64,000 nt of DNA from Spirochaetales bacterium (GTDB lineage Bacteria > Spirochaetota > Spirochaetia > SZUA-6 > DRHE01). The position numbers and the translations under genes are program-made. The first letter of the stretch is position 1. Every line of letters begins with the position of its first letter. Positions 21,297 to 34,926 of the stretch are shown here, in pieces. The notes under the pieces are model-generated. The model was not told the origin of the DNA, made no database searches, and saw only the letters and a list, made by a program, of their open reading frames with translations. The stretch is from positions 1-64,000 of the forward strand of contig JAUVWI010000012.1 in the NCBI GenBank assembly GCA_030604195.1, in the 5' to 3' direction.

Positions 21297-21348
21297 GTAT
21301 TGTGCTGAATGACAGCTATGAGCTATAATGTATAATCAGGAGTCATTG

Positions 21349-22554
21349 ATGAGTTTTGATTTACTTATAAAAAATGCCGGAACCCGGTTTTCTAAAGAAA
21401 AACTTGTTGATATCGGCATCAAAGATGGTAGAATTGCCCGAATCGCAACAGGCCTGAATGAAAGGGCTGACAGTACCATAGATGCTGCAGGTAAACTGGT
21501 AACTGAATCCTATGTAAACGGACATTTGCATCTCTGCAAAGTATATACCCTGACTATGGTAGGACAGGAAGCGCTTACCACCTACCAGGGAGGATCTATG
21601 GGCGGGGCTATGACGGCAATTGAGCTGGCCGCAAAAGTTAAGGAAAAGTATGACGAAAGCTGGATTATTGAGAATGTTCGCCGGGCGGTAAAACTTGCTG
21701 TTAAATATGGCAATACTCATATACGGGCATTTGCCGATACGGATACGAAAGCCAAACTCGAAGGGGTAAAAGCCCTGATCAAGGCCAGGGAGGAGTTTAA
21801 AGATTCTGTTGAGCTCCAGGTTGTTGCTTTTCCCCAGGATGGTGTAGTAAGAGACCCCGGAGCTGAGGATTATGTAAGAGAGGCTATGGAACTCGGCGCC
21901 GATGTTGTGGGGGGTATTCCCTGGATCGAATATACCGATGAAGATTCTCAAACTCACATTGACCTGATGTTCGAACTGGCCAAAAAATATGACCGTGATG
22001 TCTCTATGCTTATCGATGATGCCGGTGATCCCGGTTTAAGAACACTGGAAATGCTTGTTGTTAAAACTATAAAGGAAGGCTGGCAGGGAAGGGTCATGGT
22101 ACACCATGCCAGGGCAATGCAGCTCTATCCCGAACCTTACTTCAGAAAGATCGCGGCCCTGTTGAAGCAGGCTGAAATCGGCATAGTGAGTGATCCGCAC
22201 ACCGGTCCATTGCATGCGCGAGTGCGGGATCTCTATGACGGCGGTGTGGCCGTGGCTCTGGGGCAGGATGATATTGCGGATGCTTATTATCCCTTCGGGC
22301 GCAACAATATGCCCGAAGTGGCTTTCCTGGCCGCACACCTGCTGTGGATGACCACCTTTGAAGAAATGGAAATACTCTATGACCTGATCACTGTTAATGG
22401 GGCCCGGGCTATGGGAATTAAATATTTCACACTTGAAGAGGGAAATAAAGCCAACCTGGTGGTTGCCAATGCCGGGAGTGTCTGGGAAACTCTTACCAAT
22501 CATGAAGCGCCACTGCATGTAATCAAGGATGGTAAAGAGGTAACCGGCCGATAA
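21349..22554 (+). CDS. CodA-like cytosine deaminase/amidohydrolase family protein
   Basis: About 401 residues of the metal-dependent amidohydrolase superfamily. N-terminal beta-sandwich then GHLHLCK (metal HxH), LIDDAGDPG, VHHARAMQLY with a metal His, and the late metal Asp in ALGQDDIADAYYPFG. That last motif and its context are characteristic of cytosine deaminase relatives, so a cyclic amine or amide substrate such as cytosine or a related pyrimidine is plausible. Start ATG 21349 has GGAG upstream. It neighbours the nucleoside-type ABC transporter (convergent), supporting a nucleobase role. Confidence 0.8.
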   Translation: MSFDLLIKNAGTRFSKEKLVDIGIKDGRIARIATGLNERADSTIDAAGKLVTESYVNGHLHLCKVYTLTMVGQEALTTYQGGSMGGAMTAIELAAKVKEKYDESWIIENVRRAVKLAVKYGNTHIRAFADTDTKAKLEGVKALIKAREEFKDSVELQVVAFPQDGVVRDPGAEDYVREAMELGADVVGGIPWIEYTDEDSQTHIDLMFELAKKYDRDVSMLIDDAGDPGLRTLEMLVVKTIKEGWQGRVMVHHARAMQLYPEPYFRKIAALLKQAEIGIVSDPHTGPLHARVRDLYDGGVAVALGQDDIADAYYPFGRNNMPEVAFLAAHLLWMTTFEEMEILYDLITVNGARAMGIKYFTLEEGNKANLVVANAGSVWETLTNHEAPLHVIKDGKEVTGR

Positions 22555-23083: not shown

Positions 23084-24034
23084 CTATCCCCCCTTTTCCT
23101 CCCTTCTATAGGGTTTGAGCAGCCCGGCCGGCACAGTTGCCTTCCTGGATACAATAATCAGGGCTACAATAGTCAATATGTAAGGGATCATCAGGAAGAT
23201 GTCAAAGGGAACCCTGAAACCCAGGCCTTGAAGCCGGAGCTGCAGGCCATCGAGGAAGCCGAACATAATTGCACCCAGGGCTCCTTTTAAAGGATCCCAG
23301 TTGCCGAAAATGACCATGGCAATGGCGATCCAGCCCCTGCCCCCGATTACATCGATGAGGAACATATTCTGATGTGCCAGGGTCAGGAAGGCGCCGCCTA
23401 TACCCATAAGAGCGCCGCCTGCTACCAGACAGAGGGTACGGGTCAGATTTACATTAACCCCTACTGTGTCAGCGGCAAAAGGATTCTCACCCACGGTTCT
23501 GATCTTTAAGCCCACCTGGGTTTTGTAGAGGATAAGGGAAATAACCGGGATTAAAAGCAGGGCCAGGTAGGTCAATAGATACTGGTTGAAGAGGCCCTCT
23601 CCAATAATCGGGATCCTGGAAAGCAGGGGTATGGCCACCTGGGTAAAGGGCTGTACAGTGGGCGGAATAATGGGAGAGCCTATATAAAGGCGGTAGATAA
23701 ACATGGCTAAACCGGTGGAAAATAGGGTGATGCTAAGTCCGGAAACATGCTGGCTTAAACCCAGGTATACGGCGAGCAGGGCCATAAGCAGGGCGAGCGC
23801 CATACCAACTAAAGCGGCAGCTATTACACCCACCCAGAGTGAGCCGGTGATATAGGTAACCAAAAAACCAGTCATGGCTCCCATGAGCATGATGCCTTCA
23901 ATCCCTAAGTTAAGAACACCGGATCGTTCAGATAAGATCTCTCCCAGGGTGGCAAAGATAATTGGCGTGGCCATACGCATTGCGGCGGCGATCAGTCCGG
24001 TAATAAAGGCTATATTAAATATTTCATTGATCAT
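23084..24034 (-). CDS. Nucleoside-type ABC transporter permease, second subunit
   Basis: A 316-residue permease of the BMP-associated (NupQ/YufQ-like) branch of the LivH/LivM superfamily. It starts with FATLGEILSERSGVLNLGIEGIMLMGA (about residues 28-54), the most conserved motif of this group, and has about nine helices with an AADTVGVNV coupling loop. It partners with the 353-residue permease; start overlaps that gene's stop (ATGA). Last gene of the transporter operon. Confidence 0.88.
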   Translation of the reverse strand: MINEIFNIAFITGLIAAAMRMATPIIFATLGEILSERSGVLNLGIEGIMLMGAMTGFLVTYITGSLWVGVIAAALVGMALALLMALLAVYLGLSQHVSGLSITLFSTGLAMFIYRLYIGSPIIPPTVQPFTQVAIPLLSRIPIIGEGLFNQYLLTYLALLLIPVISLILYKTQVGLKIRTVGENPFAADTVGVNVNLTRTLCLVAGGALMGIGGAFLTLAHQNMFLIDVIGGRGWIAIAMVIFGNWDPLKGALGAIMFGFLDGLQLRLQGLGFRVPFDIFLMIPYILTIVALIIVSRKATVPAGLLKPYRREEKGG

Positions 24035-25092
24035 TTTCGCACCGCCTTTATCTTATATTCAGTTAAGAGAAGGAAAACGAGCATGATCATCAAGGCCATA
24101 CCCTGGATTACCTCCGCAATGTAGGAGGGCACTCCGGTCATGCGGCTCATGGTCTGGGCGCCCACAATAATTACACTGAAGAAAAAAGAAGATAAAAGCA
24201 CGCCAACGGGATGAAGGTTGCCCAACATGGCGATTACGATACCGGAGTAACCGTATCCCGGGGAAATATCCAGGATCAGCCGCTGTTGAATGGCGCAGAG
24301 TTCTCCCACTCCGGCCATCCCGGCAAGGCCGCCGGAAATAATCGCGGTTTTAAGGATTACAGAGGTGGTATTAATGCCGCCGAAATGGGCCGCTTTAATA
24401 TTTACTCCAACTGCCCGTGACTGGTAGCCGAACACGGTCTTTTTGTTGATAAACCAGATAATAGCCACTGCAATTACAGCAAGGGGTATACCCAGGTGAA
24501 ATCGGGAGCGAAAGATCAGCATTGGGTATTTGGCTGCCTCCATGATCTCTGATGATCTTGGCCAGCTGGAACCCGGCTGCTGCAGCGGGCCGAACAGAAG
24601 TGCGCCCATGATGTGCAGCATAACGTAGTTTAAGAGCAGGGTAGATACAACATCATCTACCTTAAGCCTGGTCTTAAGAATAGCCGGTACAGCCGCCCAG
24701 GCCCCGCCGGCCAGGAAGCCGGCAACCATAACCAGGGGCAGCATTAAGAGGGGAGGGACCCGGGTAAAGTATATACCTACCCAGGTGGCCATTAAAGCTC
24801 CGGCTAAAAGCTGGCCTTCTGCACCGATGTTCCAGAACCTGGCACGGAAGGCAAAAGCCACGGCTAAGCCGGTAAAGATGAGAGGGCTGGCTTTGACACA
24901 GGTTTCGAGAAAATTAAACCTGGTTCCCAGGGCGCCCTTAAAGAGATAATAATAAGATTTCCAGAGGTTGCCCCCGGCTACCATAATGGGGATTGCCGAG
25001 AGGATCATTGTTACAAAAATTGCGGCAAGGGGGATTAATAATTTAGCCCAGCCCGGAAGAGGTTCGCGTTTTACAATTCTGAAACTGATCAT
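24031..25092 (-). CDS. Nucleoside-type ABC transporter permease, first subunit
   Basis: A 353-residue permease with about nine helices, of the NupP/YufP-like type that imports purine or pyrimidine nucleosides. Family motifs: FRARFWNIGAEGQLLAGAL (about 81-99) and the coupling segment VGVNIKAAHFGGIN (about 237-250), plus YGYSGIVIAMLG. ATGA overlaps on both sides bind it to the ATPase and the second permease in one operon. Confidence 0.88.
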   Translation of the reverse strand: MISFRIVKREPLPGWAKLLIPLAAIFVTMILSAIPIMVAGGNLWKSYYYLFKGALGTRFNFLETCVKASPLIFTGLAVAFAFRARFWNIGAEGQLLAGALMATWVGIYFTRVPPLLMLPLVMVAGFLAGGAWAAVPAILKTRLKVDDVVSTLLLNYVMLHIMGALLFGPLQQPGSSWPRSSEIMEAAKYPMLIFRSRFHLGIPLAVIAVAIIWFINKKTVFGYQSRAVGVNIKAAHFGGINTTSVILKTAIISGGLAGMAGVGELCAIQQRLILDISPGYGYSGIVIAMLGNLHPVGVLLSSFFFSVIIVGAQTMSRMTGVPSYIAEVIQGMALMIMLVFLLLTEYKIKAVRK

Positions 25093-26582
25093 TTTTCTAC
25101 TCCGCTCATCCAGAGGCCCACCTGCTCTCTGGAAGCTTCATCTATGGTGATATCTCCCATTATTTCACCTTCATACATAACGATTATCCTGTCGCTTAAA
25201 GAAAAGATCTCATCGAGATCATCAGAGATAACCAGGATGCCGGCGCCCCGTTCCTTTTCCTCAAGCAGCCGCTGGTGGATATATTCCATGGCGCCTACAT
25301 CGAGACCCCTGGTAGGCAGTGAAGCGATTATTAAGCTGGGAAATCCTGATAGTTCCCGGGCAAGGATTACTTTCTGCAGGTTGCCGCCGGACAGGCTCTT
25401 TGCTGCAGCATCCCTGCCCGCAGTTTTTATGCTGAAGCTTTTAATCAACTCATCACTATAGTCATTAATTGCCTGGAAATTGATCAGGCCCTTTTTACTG
25501 AAATCACTTGAAATATGGTTTTCCAGGACCATATTCTCCGCCACTGTCAGGTCCATCAGCAGCCCGGTTTCAATACGGTCTTCAGGGATCCTGGCCATTC
25601 CGGCGCGTATGGCACTTTGGGGGTTGCCGGCAGGCAGCGGCTTTCCCTCTATTTTAATAGTTCCGGCCAGAGGTACTCTCAAGCCGAAGAGGGCCTGACA
25701 GAGCTCGCTCTGTCCATTTCCGGAAACCCCTGCTAAACCGACTATTTCCTTCTTTCGCACCAGTAGATCGATTTTTTTAACTGCTTCCAACCCCTTGTCA
25801 TTCGCTACAGTAAGCTCCTTAATTTCCAGTACCGCTTCACCGGCAGAGGTCTTTTTCTTTTCCAGCCGTTCCAGCATTTCCCTGCCAACCATTAGATTTA
25901 CCAATTCTCTGGTACTGGTTTCTTTTTTATTTTTTTCAGCAACGACCTCCCCGCCTCTCAAAACCAGAATACGGTCGCAGATCTCCATTACTTCATTCAA
26001 TTTGTGGGAAATAAAGATTACGGATTTATTTTCTTTTACTAATGACTTGAGGGTTTTAAATAATTCCCTTATTTCAATTGGAGCAAGCACAGCAGTAGGC
26101 TCATCCATTATAAGTATATCTACATCCCGGTACAGGGCTTTAAGTATTTCCACCTTCTGCTGCTCACCTACAGAAAGGCTCCACACCCTGGCCTGGTGGT
26201 CAACCTGAAGACCGAACCTTTCCTGAAGATGCAGTAGTTTTTCCGTTGCTGCTTTAATATCCAGAAAGAGACCCTTGCTCGATTTAGTGCCGATTATGAT
26301 ATTTTCCAGTACAGTCTGCGAGGGCGCTAAAGTAAAATGCTGGTGGATCATGCCGATGCCCCGGGATATGGCATCTCGGGGAGAGGTCAGCTCGGCTTTT
26401 TCCCCTTTAATGAATATCTCGCCATCATCACAGGTGTAGTAGCCGAAGAGGATATTCATCAATGTAGTTTTTCCGGCGCCATTCTCGCCCAGAAGAGCGC
26501 AGATTTCACCGGCATTTAAATAATATAACTTATTAATCGGAAATGGGTGGTTCCTCAACAACCGGAACGCGGAAAGTACCAT
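25089..26582 (-). CDS. Nucleoside-type ABC transporter ATP-binding protein, altered N-terminus
   Basis: A 497-residue double-domain sugar/nucleoside-type ATPase. First domain: Walker A GENGAGKTT (about residue 33), signature LSVGEQQKVEI, Walker B ILIMDEPTAVL. Second: degenerate Walker GVSGNGQSE, signature LSGGNLQKVILAREL. The usual opening strand (L-x-I-T-K-x-F) is missing: the ORF begins inside the binding-protein gene (MVLSAFRLLRNHPFP) and joins family sequence only at INKLYYLNAGEI. No other in-frame start exists before the Walker A. This looks like a small deletion at the gene junction, and activity is uncertain. Confidence 0.82.
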   Translation of the reverse strand: MVLSAFRLLRNHPFPINKLYYLNAGEICALLGENGAGKTTLMNILFGYYTCDDGEIFIKGEKAELTSPRDAISRGIGMIHQHFTLAPSQTVLENIIIGTKSSKGLFLDIKAATEKLLHLQERFGLQVDHQARVWSLSVGEQQKVEILKALYRDVDILIMDEPTAVLAPIEIRELFKTLKSLVKENKSVIFISHKLNEVMEICDRILVLRGGEVVAEKNKKETSTRELVNLMVGREMLERLEKKKTSAGEAVLEIKELTVANDKGLEAVKKIDLLVRKKEIVGLAGVSGNGQSELCQALFGLRVPLAGTIKIEGKPLPAGNPQSAIRAGMARIPEDRIETGLLMDLTVAENMVLENHISSDFSKKGLINFQAINDYSDELIKSFSIKTAGRDAAAKSLSGGNLQKVILARELSGFPSLIIASLPTRGLDVGAMEYIHQRLLEEKERGAGILVISDDLDEIFSLSDRIIVMYEGEIMGDITIDEASREQVGLWMSGVEK

Positions 26583-27610
26583 TGAGAATTTTTTGTTCCA
26601 GATCTCTTACCTCTTTGATAACGGCTGCCGGTAATTTCTGCTCAAAAGCGTGAAGGGGAGCCAGGCTGGCTCCGCCCTTAGCCATCATGGACCATTCGCC
26701 GAGATCCATGGAAACCCAGGCATCTTTCTTTACCATATCGATGGCATATTCGATTGTGGCGATACATATTCCAGACCGGACCGGAAATAACTACATCAGG
26801 AGCCATTTGATTCTGGTCTGACATGTTGCCGAAGGCCAGAACACCCCTCTCTTTAGCGGCCTCAAATACACCGAAGCGTTCAGCATAGATCAGGTCGACC
26901 CCTGCCTCGATCTGGGCTAAAGCGGCTTCCTTGGCCTTGGGAGGATCAAACCAACCGCCGATATAAGCGATCTTGACTTTGGTAGCGGGATTCACCGACA
27001 GGGCGCCGGCTTTGAAGGCATTCACCAGCCTGTTTACTTCGCCTATTGGAATGGCTGCCACCACGCCCAGGGTATTGGATTTGGTCATTCTTCCCGCTAT
27101 TACACCGCAGAGGAAAGCGGGCTCATGGATCCAGTTGTCTAAAACACTGAAATTGGGAGCCACCGGACCGAATTCGGAACCGAAGGCAAAGGCAATTTCC
27201 GGGTAATCTTTAGCGACTCTTCTGGCCGGGTCTTCACCAGCCAGGAAGGCGTCGCCCACGATCAAATCAAAGCCGCGTTCAGCATACTCTCTTAAGACCT
27301 TTTCAAAGTCAGCAGCAGCGATCTTTTCTGTGAACTCATATTCGACGCCCAGTTCCTTCTGCGCCTGTAAACAGGCCTGGTGGATCACTCCATCCCAGGG
27401 CTCTTCAATAGCCGTCTGAAAGAGGGCGGCAATACGGAAGGGCTGTTCCTGCTTCTCTTCTACAACCTCTTTTTTTTCACAGCCTATAAAACCGAGCGAA
27501 GCGACAAGCAGAATGACTAAAAGAAACAGCACTCTTTTTCTCCCATAGCAGTCTTCGACTGCAATGGACTTAATCTTTCTTACTGTAGTAACAAAATATT
27601 GAGCTATCAT
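26533..27610 (-). pseudogene. BMP-family nucleoside-binding lipoprotein, frameshifted
   Basis: Two ORFs (26678-27610 and 26533-26736) together make one Bmp/Med-type binding lipoprotein. The first carries the lipobox LGFIGC and family segments (IAALFQTAIEEPWDG, FDLIVGDAFLAG, GGWFDPPKAKEAALAQIEAGVDLIYAERFGVFEAA) up to VISGPVWNMY. There one extra base near 26761 shifts the frame; removing it restores ATIEYAIDMVKKDAWVSMDLGEWS and the rest. The 5' end is repeat copy B, which supplies the ATG and about 23 codons, behind an AGAGGAGGA Shine-Dalgarno. Either a true frameshift or a sequencing error. Confidence 0.8.
27541..27610 (-). repeat. Dispersed two-hairpin repeat, copy B (short form)
   Basis: Minus strand: begins ATGATAGCTCAA like copy A, has a left hairpin TTAC-TACA-GTAA, then AAGTCC and a compact right hairpin CCATTGCAGTC-GAA-GACTGCTATGG ending GGGAGA. 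The long core of copies A, C, D and E is absent, but the paired ends are kept with changed bases on both sides (CCAT/ATGG against CCAG/CTGG). It encodes the first residues of the BMP lipoprotein. Confidence 0.65.
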
Positions 27611-28703: not shown

Positions 28704-29603
28704 ATGGAGCGGCAGGGAAGGAAAAAAAGTTTCAAGGCTCAGGCTGTTGGTGATTTTGTTGAACAGATTATCACCAGGGGTGAGGTGGTTTCCATACACC
28801 AGGGTGCTGTTAATATTTTCGGTAGCAGGGACTTGCTTTTTTCACTGGTGGCAGATTTATCCGCCATGACCGCTCTAAGCATTTATCTGCCCGCCATGTT
28901 TCAGGATAAATTCCGGGGGAACCGGCAAGGAGCGGCGAAAATCAGGGCGGGTCTCGAGGTCAGAGGGCAGGGAAACAAACTTTATCTGGCCGATATGGTT
29001 ATCTCTCTGGATTTCAGTAATACGTGGAAAGGGACTCTCTCTCTTACCGATGTGGCCGGTTTTACAAAGCAGAATATTGATAATTTAGAGGAAACGCTTC
29101 TGGCATCAAAGATTGAGGAAGGTTTCATAGCTCTACACAAAAGCGCGCCGGCAGGTGATCTTTTTGTGCGCCAGGCACAAAAAATATTAGCTGGATTGTT
29201 GATTACGGGAAAACCGGCGCTGCTTAGAGGGTTATCCCGTATGGTAGGGCTGGGCATAGGCCTGACCCCTTCCGGCGATGATTTCATTGCCGGCGCCCTG
29301 CTTGGTGAAGGTATTCGGCAGCTGCTTGACAACACTGATCAGCAAAACTCCAACTTCCCGGCAATAGATAGAGCGGAGATTAATGGTGTATTATCAAAAA
29401 CCAGTTACGGTGGCAGAGCCCTGCTCTGGCTGGCGCTTCAGGGATCATTCCCCAATTACCTGATTCATACAGCCAGGGGGTTGGCCGGAGCCGTCTGCCT
29501 GGATGATATGGAGCTGGTAGTCAAAACGGCGATGCTCCACGGAGCGACTTCAGGAAGCGATGCTCTTTCGGGTCTTTTATGGTACTTGAGGCAAGCTTTT
29601 TAG
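28704..29603 (+). CDS. DUF2877 protein, AllH-type carbamoyltransferase component
   Basis: A 299-residue DUF2877 protein. The diagnostic C-terminal motif MVGLGIGLTPSGDDFIAGAL (about 184-203) is intact. In Escherichia coli the DUF2877 protein (YlbF) works with FdrA and the DUF1116 protein (YlbE) in oxamate carbamoyltransferase (AllFGH), moving a carbamoyl group onto phosphate. Here FdrA and DUF1116 follow directly downstream, though behind a separate promoter. The physiological carbamoyl donor is unknown. Confidence 0.85.
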   Translation: MERQGRKKSFKAQAVGDFVEQIITRGEVVSIHQGAVNIFGSRDLLFSLVADLSAMTALSIYLPAMFQDKFRGNRQGAAKIRAGLEVRGQGNKLYLADMVISLDFSNTWKGTLSLTDVAGFTKQNIDNLEETLLASKIEEGFIALHKSAPAGDLFVRQAQKILAGLLITGKPALLRGLSRMVGLGIGLTPSGDDFIAGALLGEGIRQLLDNTDQQNSNFPAIDRAEINGVLSKTSYGGRALLWLALQGSFPNYLIHTARGLAGAVCLDDMELVVKTAMLHGATSGSDALSGLLWYLRQAF

Positions 29604-29695
29604 TGGAAATGCTTGAGAGTACGGAGCTTTAAAAGTGCAATCCTGGGTTGCTAAGCCAAACAAAACAGATTTTAGATTATACTTTCAAATATTAT

Positions 29696-29724
29696 TTGAC
29701 AGGTATTGATATATTTTTTATTAT
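29696..29724 (+). promoter_or_regulatory. Sigma-70 promoter ahead of fdrA
   Basis: TTGACA (29696-29701), 17-base spacer, TATTAT (29719-29724), in an AT-rich 147-base gap between the DUF2877 gene and fdrA. Suggests that fdrA, the DUF1116 gene and the PF04199 gene can be transcribed separately from the DUF2877 gene. Confidence 0.6.
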
Positions 29725-29777
29725 AATTTTTTATTTTTATCTAAATAAGGGTGCTAATGCTTCAAAGGAGGATGTTT

Positions 29778-31334
29778 TTGAAAAGGATTATTGTTGAGAA
29801 AGACTCCTATTACGATTCGGTATTCCTCATGTTGATCAACAGAGATGTTAAGAAAATTGAGGGGGTTAAAGATGCCGTAGTTTCTATGGGTACGGAGATG
29901 AACATAGACCTATTAAAAGAAATCGGGCTTTCTTCACCTGAGGTGGAAAGAGCTACGGCAAATGATCTTATTATTGCTGTGGAAGCTGAAAGTGAAGAAA
30001 CTTTAGCCAGGGCCTGTGACGCAGCTAATGACCTTTTAAAGAAAAAAAAGAGCACTGTGGAGGATAGCGGCGAATATAGACCGGCAAGCCTGGAGACTGC
30101 CCTTAACATGGTACCTGATGCCAACCTGGCAATTATTTCGCTGCCTGGACAGTATGCAGCGCGCGAGGTAAGAAAAGCCCTTTCCAGGGATCTACATGTA
30201 ATGCTTTTTTCGGATAATGTTCCGCTGGAAGATGAGATTGAGCTTAAGAAACTGGCCGTGGAAAAGGGGCTTTTAATGATGGGTCCCGACTGTGGTACCG
30301 CTATCATCAATGGCAAGCCGCTCTGCTTTGCCAATGTGGTTAGAGATGGTGATATCGGTATTGTGGCAGCTTCGGGAACCGGACTGCAGGAGGTTTTCTG
30401 CTGCATAGATAACCTGGGCAGCGGTGTAACCCAGGCAATCGGCACCGGCGGCAGAGACCTGAAAAATGCCAGGGTCGGCGGTATGATGATGATGCTCGGC
30501 ATAGAAGCCCTGGAAAAAGATCCACGCACAAAGGTGATCGTGGTAATTTCCAAACCCCCTGCACCTGATGTAGCTGATAAAGTAGTTGCCAGGTTGAAAG
30601 AAACCGGTAAGCCGGCGGTTATTCACTTCATTGGTCTTGAAGCTAAAGAGCAGAGGCATAACCTCTACTTTGCCGGTAATCTGGAAGAGGCTGCCGGCAT
30701 GGCAGTTTCCCTGTCAAGGTGCGAAGTCTACAAGCCCAGGGTCTTTACTTTACCGGAAGAAAAAGTAGGGGAAATTGTAGCAAGAGAGAGCGCCATGATC
30801 TCTTCCGGGCAAAAATACCTGCGCGGTTTGTATACGGGGGGTACCCTGGCGGATGAAGCGATGATTCTCTTTGATCGCGAGATAGGTGGGATTTATTCCA
30901 ATAACCAGGTAAAGCCGGAGCTGGTGCCTGCTGATCCCCATGTTTCTCAAGAACATACAATAGTGGATCTTGGGGATGATGTATTTACCGTTGGCCGTCC
31001 CCACCCGATGATCGACCCCTCCACCCGTGAGCAAAGGATTGTCAGGGAAATGGAGGATCCCGAGGTAGCCCTCCTGCTGCTGGACATTGTTCTCGGTTAC
31101 GGTTCTCATAATGATCCTGCCGGGGCTATTCTGGACAGCCTCAAAGAGGCCAGGGAAAAGGCCAAACAGAGAGGCGGCTATCTGGCCGTTATCGCTTCCA
31201 TTACCGGCACTGAGGGTGATTTTCAAAATATGGCGGAGCAGCAGAAAAAACTGGAATCAATTGGCTGTATTGTTATGTCTTCCAACTATCAGGCATCAAT
31301 GCTGTCCCTTGAGATTATCAGAAAGGTGGTTTAA
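29778..31334 (+). CDS. fdrA: FdrA/AllF-type acyl-CoA-synthetase-like carbamoyltransferase subunit
   Basis: About 518 residues, full FdrA length. The N-terminus KRIIVEKDSYYDSVFLMLIN and KKIEGVKDAVVSMGTEMN are family hallmarks. Two succinyl-CoA-synthetase-like Rossmann parts follow: GPDCGTAIINGKPLCFANV and AASGTGLQEVFC (about 170-215), then RGLYTGGTLADEAM and VGRPHPMIDPSTR (about 355-415). I choose TTG 29778 because AAGGAGG lies six bases upstream; the ORF-track ATG is inside or before that site. It is two bases from the DUF1116 gene. Likely transfers a carbamoyl group to or from phosphate with its two partners. Confidence 0.88.
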   Translation: MKRIIVEKDSYYDSVFLMLINRDVKKIEGVKDAVVSMGTEMNIDLLKEIGLSSPEVERATANDLIIAVEAESEETLARACDAANDLLKKKKSTVEDSGEYRPASLETALNMVPDANLAIISLPGQYAAREVRKALSRDLHVMLFSDNVPLEDEIELKKLAVEKGLLMMGPDCGTAIINGKPLCFANVVRDGDIGIVAASGTGLQEVFCCIDNLGSGVTQAIGTGGRDLKNARVGGMMMMLGIEALEKDPRTKVIVVISKPPAPDVADKVVARLKETGKPAVIHFIGLEAKEQRHNLYFAGNLEEAAGMAVSLSRCEVYKPRVFTLPEEKVGEIVARESAMISSGQKYLRGLYTGGTLADEAMILFDREIGGIYSNNQVKPELVPADPHVSQEHTIVDLGDDVFTVGRPHPMIDPSTREQRIVREMEDPEVALLLLDIVLGYGSHNDPAGAILDSLKEAREKAKQRGGYLAVIASITGTEGDFQNMAEQQKKLESIGCIVMSSNYQASMLSLEIIRKVV

Positions 31335-31336
31335 AA

Positions 31337-32758
31337 ATGAATGTTGAGAAGATAAATAAGCTCTTTAATCAGGACCTGGTTGCAGTTAATATGGGGCTCG
31401 AATCTTTTGCGGATAACCTGAAAAAAGAGGGTGCCAGGGCTATACAGGTAAATTGGAAGCCGCCTGCAGGAGGCAATGCCAGGATGGCTGTGCTGCTCGC
31501 TAAATTAGGGCGCTATCTCAAGGGAGATAGGGCGAACCAGGAAGCTGTTTCCCGTATTCTCAAGAGCAAGCCAACCCTGGTGGATATTTCCACAGCCGGT
31601 GAAGCTGTGCCCGGTATGCAGAAGAAGATGATTCTCCATGCGGGACCCCCGGTAACCTGGGAACGAATGTGCGGTCCCATGCGCGGAGCGGTAATCGGCG
31701 GCTTGCTGCTTGAAGGTCTGGCCGCTGATCAAGAAGAGGCGGAAAAGCTGGCTGCTTCCGGTGATATCATTTTTGAACCCTGTCACCATCACGATAGTGT
31801 CGGCCCCATGGCCGGTATTATGACCTACTCCATGCCGGTGTGGGTTCTGGAAAACAAGACCTACGGCAACCGGGCCTACTGCACCTTGAATGAAGGCCTT
31901 GGCAAAGTGCTACGGTACGGAGCCTACTCTGCGGAGGTAATTGATAAGCTTAAGTGGATGGCTTCGGAGCTGGCGCCGATTCTGAAAAAGGCTCTGCAGG
32001 CTCATGGCGAAATCGATATGAAGAATCTGATCTCTCAAGCTCTGCAGATGGGTGATGAGGGACACAACCGTAACCGGGCAGCCACTTCTCTGGTAATCAG
32101 GGAGTTGGCTCCATACCTGGTAATGCTCGATGAGGAGAGGGAAAAGATCGCCGGAGTGCTGAATTTCATGCACACAAACGATCATTTCTTTCTTAATCTC
32201 TCCATGCCTGCGAGCAAATGCACTGTAGATGCGGCTGCCGGTATTGAGGGCAGTTCTGTGATCACCACCATGGCAAGAAACGGCACCGACTTTGGTATCC
32301 GTATTTCCGGGCTTGGGGTTCAATGGTTTACCGCGCCGGCCACCATGGTGGATGGCCTCTATCTGCCCGGTTACCAGGCTGAAGATGCGGCTCCCGACAT
32401 CGGTGATTCGGTAATAACCGAAACAGTGGGTATAGGTGGTTTTGCCATGGCTGCGGCGCCGGCAATTGTCAAATTCGTGGGCGGCAGCCCCAAAGACGCT
32501 ATCAACTTCACCCTGTCCATGTATGAAATCACCCTGGCCGAGAATGATACCTTCCAGATCCCCGCTTTAGATTTCCGGGGCACACCCACAGGGATTGACC
32601 TGGTAAGGATTATTGAAACCGGAATACTCCCGGCCATTAACACCGGTATTGCCCATAAGGATCCGGGTATAGGTATGGTCGGCGCCGGGCTGGTTAAGCC
32701 CCCTGAGGAGTGTTTCCAGGATGCACTGGAAGCCTTTGTAGAGAGGTATGGTGATTAA
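31337..32758 (+). CDS. DUF1116 protein, AllG-type carbamoyltransferase component
   Basis: A 473-residue DUF1116 (YlbE-like) protein. Recognisable blocks include VNWKPPAGG, GPPVTWERMCGPMRGAVIGGL, EPCHHHDSVGPMAGI and MGDEGHNRNRAAT, plus the glycine-rich TVGIGGFAMAAAPAIVKFVGG. It normally accompanies FdrA and DUF2877. Gap to fdrA is two bases, so it is coupled. Its exact role in the complex is not visible from sequence. Confidence 0.88.
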   Translation: MNVEKINKLFNQDLVAVNMGLESFADNLKKEGARAIQVNWKPPAGGNARMAVLLAKLGRYLKGDRANQEAVSRILKSKPTLVDISTAGEAVPGMQKKMILHAGPPVTWERMCGPMRGAVIGGLLLEGLAADQEEAEKLAASGDIIFEPCHHHDSVGPMAGIMTYSMPVWVLENKTYGNRAYCTLNEGLGKVLRYGAYSAEVIDKLKWMASELAPILKKALQAHGEIDMKNLISQALQMGDEGHNRNRAATSLVIRELAPYLVMLDEEREKIAGVLNFMHTNDHFFLNLSMPASKCTVDAAAGIEGSSVITTMARNGTDFGIRISGLGVQWFTAPATMVDGLYLPGYQAEDAAPDIGDSVITETVGIGGFAMAAAPAIVKFVGGSPKDAINFTLSMYEITLAENDTFQIPALDFRGTPTGIDLVRIIETGILPAINTGIAHKDPGIGMVGAGLVKPPEECFQDALEAFVERYGD

Positions 32759-32786
32759 AAGTATAAAAATAATTTAGGAGGAAAAG

Positions 32787-33656
32787 ATGAAAATGATCGA
32801 TCTGACGATTCCTTTTGGAATCGCCACCCCGCCCTGGCCCAGCTACGAGCCGCTGCAGGTAAAATACTTCAAAAGGCTGGCCCCCAATGGCGCCAATGGA
32901 CAGCTGGTAACCCATTCCAACCATGTGGGGACCCATCTTGACGGCGAGATTCACTTCTACACCCCGGGTAAAGATATTGCCTCACTGGATATGGACTTCC
33001 TGGTAAATGAAGGTGTTGTAGTAGATCTTTCCGACTGCACTACCGACTACGATGTCTATACATCAAAGCAGGTAGAGGAAAGGGTAGAGGTAAAAGAAGG
33101 GGATATCCTGATTATCCATACCGGTTATCACCACTACGGCTGGGATCAGCCTACTGCGGATGAGATCCGTTACATGGTTAAACACCCGGGCCCGGACCGC
33201 GAGTTTGCCGAATGGGCCAAAAAGAAAAAACTGCGCTGGATCGGTGTAGACTGCGGCAGCGCCGACCATCCAATGAATACCATTATCCGGGATTGGATGC
33301 CGCGGCAGAAAAAGGAGGCTGAAGCCTTCTTTCAGAAGAAATTCGGCAAGAGCCTGGAAGAATATTTTACCGATGACAAGTACCAGTTAATGCACATCGA
33401 GATGTTTAACCACGGTATTATCCACCTGGAATGTGCAGGCGGTGACCTGGACCTGCTCCTTAATCAGCGGGTCACTATAGGCTGTTTTCCCTGGAGATTT
33501 GTAGATGGAGAATCGAGCATTGCCAGGCTGGTTGCCATGGTTGATGACGATCGTTATGAGAAATTGATGGAGAAGAAGAAGAAGGCCAGGCTTACCAGGT
33601 TCGGCGATGTAGCCGGCGCCCTCAATGACTGGCTCCATGAGGAAGCCAGGAAGTAA
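32787..33656 (+). CDS. Cyclase-family (PF04199) metal-dependent hydrolase
   Basis: A 289-residue member of the family that includes kynurenine formamidase and isatin hydrolase. The metal motif HVGTHLDGEIHF (about 48-59) matches HxGTHxDxPxHF, except that glutamate replaces the usual proline region. Other blocks: LIIHTGYHHYG and IGVDCGSADHP (about 155). Such enzymes open cyclic or linear amides, so it may replace a dihydropyrimidinase or act on a ureide here (inference). Good GGAGG before ATG 32787; third gene after fdrA. Confidence 0.85.
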   Translation: MKMIDLTIPFGIATPPWPSYEPLQVKYFKRLAPNGANGQLVTHSNHVGTHLDGEIHFYTPGKDIASLDMDFLVNEGVVVDLSDCTTDYDVYTSKQVEERVEVKEGDILIIHTGYHHYGWDQPTADEIRYMVKHPGPDREFAEWAKKKKLRWIGVDCGSADHPMNTIIRDWMPRQKKEAEAFFQKKFGKSLEEYFTDDKYQLMHIEMFNHGIIHLECAGGDLDLLLNQRVTIGCFPWRFVDGESSIARLVAMVDDDRYEKLMEKKKKARLTRFGDVAGALNDWLHEEARK

Positions 33657-33691
33657 TCAAGAATAATCCGGCAGTGTAAGAGGGTGATTAT

Positions 33692-33724
33692 TTGGGGCTC
33701 CTTATAAAGAGGAGCCCTTTTTAT
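33692..33724 (+). terminator. Rho-independent terminator between convergent genes
   Basis: Stem GGGCTCC/GGAGCCC with loop TTATAAAGA followed by T5, between the PF04199 gene (+) and the PreA-like gene (-). Reading the minus strand it also has a short U-run, so it may serve both. Confidence 0.8.
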
Positions 33725-34926
33725 TTGGCCTCCATACCTATGGCACCCTTTGGACAGAGATCCACACAGGTGGAACAGGCCAGGCATTTGTCATGATCTA
33801 TGGTTGTGACATCTTCAGGGTGGCTGATGGCCGGACAATGGCCGATTTTCCAGCAGATACCGCAGGAATTGCATTTTTCCGGATCAACCCGGGCATAGCC
33901 GTCGTATATGGTGAGTTCATCAGCCGCCTTGATATTCTTATGCAGCAGGTCCCGGAAATCTCTTATCCGCCGGTAGCCCATTTCCCGCATGTAACTTTTT
34001 AGCTGTTCGAGCATTTTTGGCAGCCAGTCAAAGCCCCTGAGCATAGTCTCCGTACAGATCTGTACGGCATCACTGCCTACCATGATTTGCTGCACACCGC
34101 TCTGCAGGTCGGAGACGCCGCCCGACCCCATTATAAAGGGCTCCGGCCCCAGGTAGTAGCGCATCTCGTAAGTATCCCTTAAAGCCAGGGGTCTGATCCA
34201 GGGGCCTGACAAACACCCCAGCGTAATATTATCCTGCAGGCGGTAGATGGTTCCCATGGGATTGCGGATATCTATGTCCGGTATTCCCAGCCTGTTGGCT
34301 ACACTGACCACTGCGGCGGCTCCGGCATGGATCGATTGGTATGCCGCCTGGGCTATCTTGCCCCCCTCTGGAGTGAGCTTGACAAATACCGGTATTTTAA
34401 CCGCATCTACGATAATCTTTACCACCCTGGGCAGCTCCACAAGGTCTGATCCCAGGCTGGCGCCGGTGGCCTGTTCGGGATTCTCTCCTGTGGCAGTCAA
34501 ATTAAAGGACATGTTGGGGCAGCACATGTTGAGCTCAATGGCTTGAGCCCCGGCATCTTCATATCTTTTAGCCAATAGGGGCCAGCCCTCGCGGTCTTTG
34601 CCGTCATAAGTAATATTGGGGAAGACGAGTATATCTTTGGTAAACCTTCTGGCCTCTTCAATCAGTTTCAGGGATACATCAGGAGTAAGACGGCTTTCAG
34701 CTGTGAAGATGTGGAGCTTCTGTTTCTTGAGCCAGCGGTAGCGCGGCGGCCTGTTAATATAGGGCGCCGGATCAATGGCCAGCTTAATGGAAACACCGGC
34801 CCAGCCATTGTCTTCCGCTTCCCTTATCTGATCGACCGTTTTAACGGTAGGACCCGAGCCCACAATAAAGGGATTGCGCAGGGTTAGATTACCCAGTTTG
34901 ACAGATATATCTACAGCTTCCGCCAT
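33721..34926 (-). CDS. preA: PreA-like dihydropyrimidine dehydrogenase subunit
   Basis: A 401-residue flavoprotein of the dihydroorotate/dihydropyrimidine dehydrogenase family. An FMN-binding TIM barrel (about 8-320; FIVGSGPTVKT, IELNMCCPN, KLTPEGGKIA, IMGSGGVSD) is followed by a bacterial ferredoxin domain with two 4Fe-4S clusters (CNSCGICWKIGHCP and CLACSTCVDLCP). PreA with PreT reduces uracil and thymine with NADH; no PreT-like partner is in the window. The barrel lacks the clear catalytic Cys context I can place with certainty; SVANRLG-type blocks are present. Convergent with the PF04199 gene. Confidence 0.87.
   Translation of the reverse strand: MAEAVDISVKLGNLTLRNPFIVGSGPTVKTVDQIREAEDNGWAGVSIKLAIDPAPYINRPPRYRWLKKQKLHIFTAESRLTPDVSLKLIEEARRFTKDILVFPNITYDGKDREGWPLLAKRYEDAGAQAIELNMCCPNMSFNLTATGENPEQATGASLGSDLVELPRVVKIIVDAVKIPVFVKLTPEGGKIAQAAYQSIHAGAAAVVSVANRLGIPDIDIRNPMGTIYRLQDNITLGCLSGPWIRPLALRDTYEMRYYLGPEPFIMGSGGVSDLQSGVQQIMVGSDAVQICTETMLRGFDWLPKMLEQLKSYMREMGYRRIRDFRDLLHKNIKAADELTIYDGYARVDPEKCNSCGICWKIGHCPAISHPEDVTTIDHDKCLACSTCVDLCPKGAIGMEAK

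Follow-up and report, generated by a model that had tools for sequence, protein, structure and literature searches.

The first 64,000 nucleotides of contig JAUVWI010000012.1 from a Spirochaetales bacterium (GCA_030604195.1; hereafter the window) carry a four-gene cassette, AllH-AllF-AllG-Cyc, which we consider rather likely to form the central part of an oxidative route of pyrimidine breakdown. It encodes relatives of the three subunits of the E. coli carbamoyltransferase AllFGH, together with the hydrolase Cyc. The gene families, the conservation of their order, their co-occurrence, their linkage to pyrimidine genes and a carbamate kinase in the genome were observed directly, and from these we infer every substrate, product and reaction direction. 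The cassette comprises the following genes:

28704-29603, + strand: AllH-like subunit (DUF2877, PF11392; 50.6 bits, cut-off 25)
29751-31334, + strand: AllF-like subunit (FdrA; PF02629 and PF00549; PRK06091, 543 bits, cut-off 433)
31337-32758, + strand: AllG-like subunit (DUF1116, PF06545; Pfam, 342 bits)
32787-33656, + strand: Cyc, metal-dependent ring-opening hydrolase of PF04199, predicted to be barbiturase-like (Pfam, 109 bits)

The cassette and its conservation

The four genes are co-directional (28704-33656, plus strand), with 2 bp between AllF and AllG and 28 bp between AllG and Cyc; a PreA-like gene opposes them on the minus strand. Every open reading frame named in an earlier, sequence-only reading of the window was in place, and Pfam and NCBIfam agreed with its families, the score of the PreA-like gene excepted. 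All three subunit families, AllF, AllG and AllH, are present according to these models and to identity comparison: AllF is 41% identical to E. coli AllF and 46% to YahF, AllG is 47% identical to E. coli AllG and 57% to Peptoclostridium AllG, and AllH shows weak similarity to E. coli AllH. Cyc keeps the metal motif HxGTHxDxxxH, in which H46, G48, T49, H50, D52 and H56 are invariant among bacterial and archaeal homologues. It belongs to PF04199 and lies outside the AtzD/barbiturase fold family PF09663, a profile search for which, run without a positive control, gave no match in 61 relatives. The predicted structure of Cyc (predicted local distance difference test score of 46.5, from 8 sequences) is not interpretable.

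The AllF-AllG-Cyc order is kept across many Spirochaetota families, and the arrangement is therefore not due to chance. AllH homologues occupy the same operons in relatives. The Cyc orthologues adjoining AllFG in Spirochaetota are 73-92% identical, Cyc usually being better conserved than AllF. Among 61 relatives, the nine with a close AllG, from five families, are exactly those with a Cyc orthologue of at least 76% identity; the same nine encode a cassette-type molybdenum hydroxylase large subunit, at 75-100% identity in seven and at 58% and 43% in the remaining two. At E ≤ 1e-40, Cyc was found in 27 of 393 Spirochaetota genomes. We surveyed all fetched Spirochaetota loci carrying Cyc (n = 36). 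Of these, 31 also have AllG on the same stretch, three of the five exceptions being cut by contig ends, and the partners include the molybdenum hydroxylase large subunit (19 loci), an NCS2 permease (13), an amidase (13), CaiB (11) and a thiolase (11). Two arrangements of the operon were found repeatedly, Cyc-CaiB-amidase and Cyc-hyp230-thiolase. Carbamate kinase lies inside the gene run at a single locus (G352), and G402, G294 and G429 encode AllF and AllG as one fused protein. Distance matrices correlate for AllG and Cyc (r = 0.71), Cyc and the molybdenum hydroxylase large subunit (r = 0.81) and AllG and the latter (r = 0.60; Mantel p ~0.0005), a correlation that could come from shared descent alone.

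In one of the operon types, a GNAT-like protein of 230 residues and a thiolase follow Cyc, mostly replacing CaiB and the amidase (L155, L157, L159, L160, L166, L003 and L088).

Predicted chemistry and partner genes

Upstream of AllF-AllG-Cyc, most relatives' loci encode the three subunits (FAD, 2Fe-2S and molybdenum cofactor) of a molybdenum hydroxylase of the xanthine dehydrogenase (XDH) family. Molybdenum hydroxylases add water-derived oxygen to a heteroaromatic ring. Since this is the gene that travels with AllFG-Cyc, an oxidation is indicated. The catalytic Glu is kept, in what we take to be the GVAEH motif, whose Glu aligns in the region of XDH Glu1261. The position of XDH Arg880 is not kept, and these residues are not diagnostic of the substrate.

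In the pathway that we propose, nucleobases would be imported, and the molybdenum hydroxylase would oxidize uracil or thymine to (methyl)barbiturate, the ring of which would be hydrolyzed by Cyc to ureidomalonate. Phosphorolysis of ureidomalonate by the AllFGH-type enzyme would then give malonamate and carbamoyl phosphate, from which carbamate kinase would form ATP, NH3 and CO2. In relatives, a malonamidase-like amidase could release malonate from malonamate, and a CaiB CoA-transferase could activate it to malonyl-CoA. A biotin-dependent Na+-pump decarboxylase may finally yield acetyl-CoA from malonyl-CoA, with propionyl-CoA as the corresponding product from thymine. The reductive pyrimidine genes of the same genomes could take up the electrons, and the whole may thus be a pyrimidine disproportionation.

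The carbamoyltransferase step is modeled on E. coli AllFGH, which interconverts oxalurate plus phosphate and oxamate plus carbamoyl phosphate (PMC11326118); ureidomalonate, like oxalurate, is an N-carbamoyl amide, and the analogous product would be malonamate. The cassette might instead perform the E. coli reaction itself, with Cyc converting parabanate to oxalurate and AllFGH acting as a true oxamate carbamoyltransferase. This chemistry is established for the E. coli enzyme (PMC11326118), and the title of one reference reports that parabanic acid induces a transcarbamylase. However, among the AllG proteins compared, the one from E. coli is the least similar to that of the window (47%, versus 50-57% for the YahG, plasmid and Peptoclostridium forms), the malonamidase-like and CoA-transferase partners would be left unexplained, and no allantoin or ureidoglycolate genes were found among the annotated neighbors, either in the window or in the relatives' loci. 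We therefore judge such a role highly improbable, and the sequence-only reading had likewise discounted an oxamate function for want of an E. coli-type allantoin or ureidoglycolate context.

The downstream partners bear on the fate of the product. The operon amidase (~450 residues) has malonamidase E2 as its best PDB match (E 5e-47, 164 bits), ahead of biuret hydrolase (135 bits). It keeps the TQTxGSxxRP motif of malonamidase E2, present in 9 of 9 sequences, and the Ser-cisSer-Lys region. Malonamate had been proposed as the product before this amidase was identified as malonamidase-like; the match agrees with the prediction and lends it support, not proof, since the substrates of amidase-signature enzymes vary. 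The CaiB protein adjoining the amidase matches dicarboxylate CoA-transferases. In one family (f6), the operon also includes a biotin-dependent Na+-pump decarboxylase of the methylmalonyl-CoA type.

Linkage to pyrimidine genes and weighing of alternatives

Two relatives tie the cassette to the reductive pyrimidine pathway. In G294, genes for a fused AllFG, Cyc, an aldehyde dehydrogenase, an M20 carbamoylase, PreT, PydA, HydA and a class III aminotransferase form one co-directional run with gaps of at most 125 bp. A single contig of G046 encodes AllH, AllF, AllG and Cyc together with the molybdenum hydroxylase, the decarboxylase, HydA, PydA-PreT, an M20 hydrolase, a CN-hydrolase, an NCS2 permease, an aminotransferase and an aldehyde dehydrogenase. 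The location of the cassette in or beside these complete reductive loci supports a role in pyrimidine catabolism. Since the G294 run has an M20 carbamoylase as well as AllFG, the latter is not a simple replacement for the carbamoylase.

The window genome, G000, is a metagenome-assembled genome of 3.83 Mb in 145 contigs (97% complete, 5.9% contamination). The carbamate kinase to which the sequence-only reading assigned ATP formation is present in it (C75:8712-9644; TIGR00746, 405 bits, cut-off 358), outside the cassette operon and beside a second BMP/Nup importer. Together with G294 and G046, this gene bears out the theme of that reading, an energy-yielding pyrimidine module in which carbamoyl phosphate serves to make ATP; the steps that it assigned are probably wrong. 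G000 also encodes an 82% orthologue of the cassette-type molybdenum hydroxylase (C54:9062-11437), with FAD and 2Fe-2S subunits, beside a BMP/Nup importer. A permease 79% identical to that of G046 adjoins genes for an aldehyde dehydrogenase-like protein, a class III aminotransferase, the decarboxylase and a CN-hydrolase with beta-ureidopropionases among its top PDB matches.

About ten molybdenum hydroxylase large subunits are encoded in G000 (11 listed matches), which suggests specialization on heterocycles. A second AllFG copy (L022, on the 3064-bp contig C88) was left unused: it shares 98.4% identity with a contig from a different genome (L008/G075) and probably represents contamination or a very recent transfer.

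The steps assigned by the sequence-only reading depend on a gene adjoining the cassette in the window, listed here with the other neighbors that it had named:

33721-34926, - strand: PreA-like flavoprotein of the dihydroorotate dehydrogenase type, with two [4Fe-4S] motifs (top match PreA PRK08318, 184 bits, cut-off 335)
23084-27610, - strand: BMP/Nup-type ABC importer
21328-22554, + strand: CodA-like amidohydrolase (PRK07572, 262 bits, below the cut-off of 438)

According to that reading, PreA would produce dihydrouracil, Cyc would open its ring and AllFGH would phosphorolyze N-carbamoyl-beta-alanine in place of beta-ureidopropionase. The linkage to pyrimidine genes is real, a carbamate kinase is present, the PreA-like gene does adjoin the cassette in the window, and catabolic ornithine carbamoyltransferase offers a precedent for the phosphorolysis of an alkyl-ureido group. 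Against it, contig C13 of G000 groups a dihydropyrimidinase (HydA; 513 bits, over the cut-off) with a PydA paralogue and a PreT-like protein, and the genome has M20 (C79) and CN-hydrolase genes of the ureidopropionase type; G000 thus has the normal dihydropyrimidinase and the ureidopropionase-type hydrolases whose presence the sequence-only reading had itself named as refuting it. The G294 operon likewise has its canonical M20 carbamoylase in addition to AllFG, and the conserved molybdenum hydroxylase would be left unexplained.

Nor does the PreA-like gene suit the part of uracil reductase. Besides its low score, alignment with pig dihydropyrimidine dehydrogenase shows that N668, C671 and N736 are conserved and that the counterparts of Asn609, Glu611 and Thr737 are not; we take all six to be uracil-site residues. 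The PreT expected as its partner exists at C13, and no PreT-like open reading frame adjoins the PreA-like gene in the window. Orthologues of this gene (66-77% identity) lie apart from the cassette in nine other genomes, AllG-positive and AllG-negative alike, mostly next to a GFO/IDH/MocA oxidoreductase and in some cases to an MTTB-like methyltransferase, a Liv transporter or a molybdenum hydroxylase paralogue. With such neighbors, irrespective of AllG, it was rejected as a module member, and it represents a separate subfamily. Taken together, the reductive scheme appears quite unlikely.

A purine or a related cyclic ureide would be another conceivable substrate: the molybdenum hydroxylase would act on the heterocycle, Cyc would open a cyclic imide and AllFGH would phosphorolyze the ureido product. 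Among NCBIfam models, the molybdenum hydroxylase subunits score highest on XdhA, albeit below the cut-off, the associated NCS2 permeases are closer to models of xanthine permease (PbuX) than to those of uracil permease, and Peptoclostridium AllHFG-ArcC lies near genes annotated as xanthine permeases. However, the operons showed no genes for imidazole degradation, the linkage is to dihydropyrimidine dehydrogenase and dihydropyrimidinase, and malonamidase-like and dicarboxylate CoA-transferase genes suit malonate rather than imidazole. We regard this route as a minor possibility. A purine fermentation (xanthinase) context was rejected, as the published surroundings of xanthinase genes differ from the cassette loci.

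Several observations, the permease scores among them, count against an oxidative pyrimidine pathway. A reductive route already exists in the window organism, so a second one needs a reason. The predicted pathway is spread in G000 over contigs C64, C54, C8, C13 and C75, with the molybdenum hydroxylase, carbamate kinase, permease and decarboxylase off the cassette contig in a genome with 5.9% contamination. No malonamidase-like gene was found in G000 in a search at E 1e-20, and the CaiB homologues that it does have show 40-45% identity and no linkage. The case for a cassette-specific decarboxylase is weakened by AllG-negative relatives, which have the enzyme too. Finally, haloarchaeal plasmid loci lack AllFGH, although in carrying a Cyc homologue (~50%) with NCS2 and CaiB genes, and with molybdenum hydroxylase genes in two of three, they offer an independent parallel in favor of the pathway.

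We tentatively extend the oxidative pathway to an anaerobic fermentation of uracil and thymine by disproportionation, which is possible although less likely than the oxidative role itself. The molybdenum hydroxylase, the PF04199 barbiturase and AllFGH would oxidize one molecule while the Pyd enzymes reduce a second, balancing the electrons, with ATP obtained via carbamoyl phosphate and a Na+ gradient via (methyl)malonyl-CoA decarboxylation. Pyrimidines would then serve as an energy source through two coupling mechanisms. We found no description of this gene combination in the literature searched. If the proposal is true, it would supply genes for an oxidative pyrimidine pathway for which none are known in anaerobes, add a second barbiturase family unrelated to the first, and extend the AllFGH carbamoyltransferase, the first such enzyme having been identified only in 2024, to a second substrate. 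It would also provide a candidate for the uracil/thymine dehydrogenase reaction, for which we know of no gene.

The nucleoside-type importer and the CodA-like deaminase noted by the sequence-only reading are both present. Of the families it had grouped, AllFG and Cyc are conserved together, while the association of the PreA-like gene, the Nup importer and CodA with the cassette is not conserved in relatives: the window-type PreA and the Nup importer each occur on 1 of the 36 Cyc-bearing loci, namely the window itself. The CodA-like gene, 28% identical to YahJ and away from the cassette elsewhere, was set aside as a module member. The BMP lipoprotein reading frame (26536-27610, minus strand) contains a frameshift near 26760, orthologues matching frame -1 to 26762 and frame -2 from 26757 to 26536; the cause may lie in the assembly, or the lesion may be genuine. 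In the Nup ATPase (25089-26582, minus strand), the first ~20 residues are unlike those of orthologues and similarity begins at 26525, so that the true start is probably altered or the sequence is off close to the BMP frameshift. Two other loci (L082 in G011 and L087 in G016) combine Nup importer orthologues (69-83%) with the PreA-like gene, a molybdenum hydroxylase paralogue (~41% identical to the cassette type) and a gene resembling those of TIM-barrel isomerases, which suggests another heterocycle or nucleoside module.

Comparison with known systems

The cassette shares pyrimidine catabolism with the reductive Pyd pathway (PydA/PreAT, PydB and PydC), and the two stand in a common operon (G294), on a common contig (G046) or at separate loci (G000). 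Their enzyme families differ, and the cassette appears to serve an oxidized branch. The aerobic oxidative pathway comprises uracil/thymine dehydrogenase, barbiturase and ureidomalonase; uracil is first converted to barbiturate, and the barbiturase and ureidomalonase steps follow (PMC3758960). Barbiturate and ureidomalonate are also the predicted intermediates here, whereas ring opening is predicted to depend on PF04199 instead of a PF09663 barbiturase, and phosphorolysis would give malonamate and carbamoyl phosphate, unlike the aerobic hydrolysis to malonate and urea. A Rhodococcus ruber locus (L092, pmega_2), in which a Cyc homologue (~40%) accompanies nitrilase, cupin, Rieske oxygenase and reductase genes, with a DUF1116 gene 11 kb away, is possibly an aerobic counterpart.

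Nitrifier genomes pair AllFGHK with BiuH (PMC12625717). Citrobacter plasmids offer an independent parallel in support of the proposed pathway, combining AllHFG-ArcC with a ring-opening amidohydrolase (of the AtzD/barbiturase family by its annotated name) and an NCS2 symporter. In E. coli plasmids and Peptoclostridium, AllHFG-ArcC is accompanied by nucleobase permeases and a cysteine hydrolase, which in Peptoclostridium is BiuH-like. Such nitrifier and enterobacterial loci resemble the cassette in that an AllFGH-type enzyme and carbamate kinase accompany ureide hydrolases and nucleobase transporters. In contrast, their hydrolase is a cysteine or AtzD-type enzyme, and neither PF04199 nor a molybdenum hydroxylase was present in the loci inspected. 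The E. coli yahE-F-G-I-J cluster (L095) has the same DUF2877-FdrA-DUF1116-carbamate kinase set with an amidohydrolase; we know of no function for it.

Among the closest parallels is E. coli AllFGH with AllK, which has the same three subunit families, a genomic carbamate kinase and, as predicted here, the phosphorolysis of an N-carbamoyl amide. The cassette differs in standing apart from allantoin genes, in having a molybdenum hydroxylase and a PF04199 hydrolase as partners, and in a predicted substrate that would be one CH2 longer.

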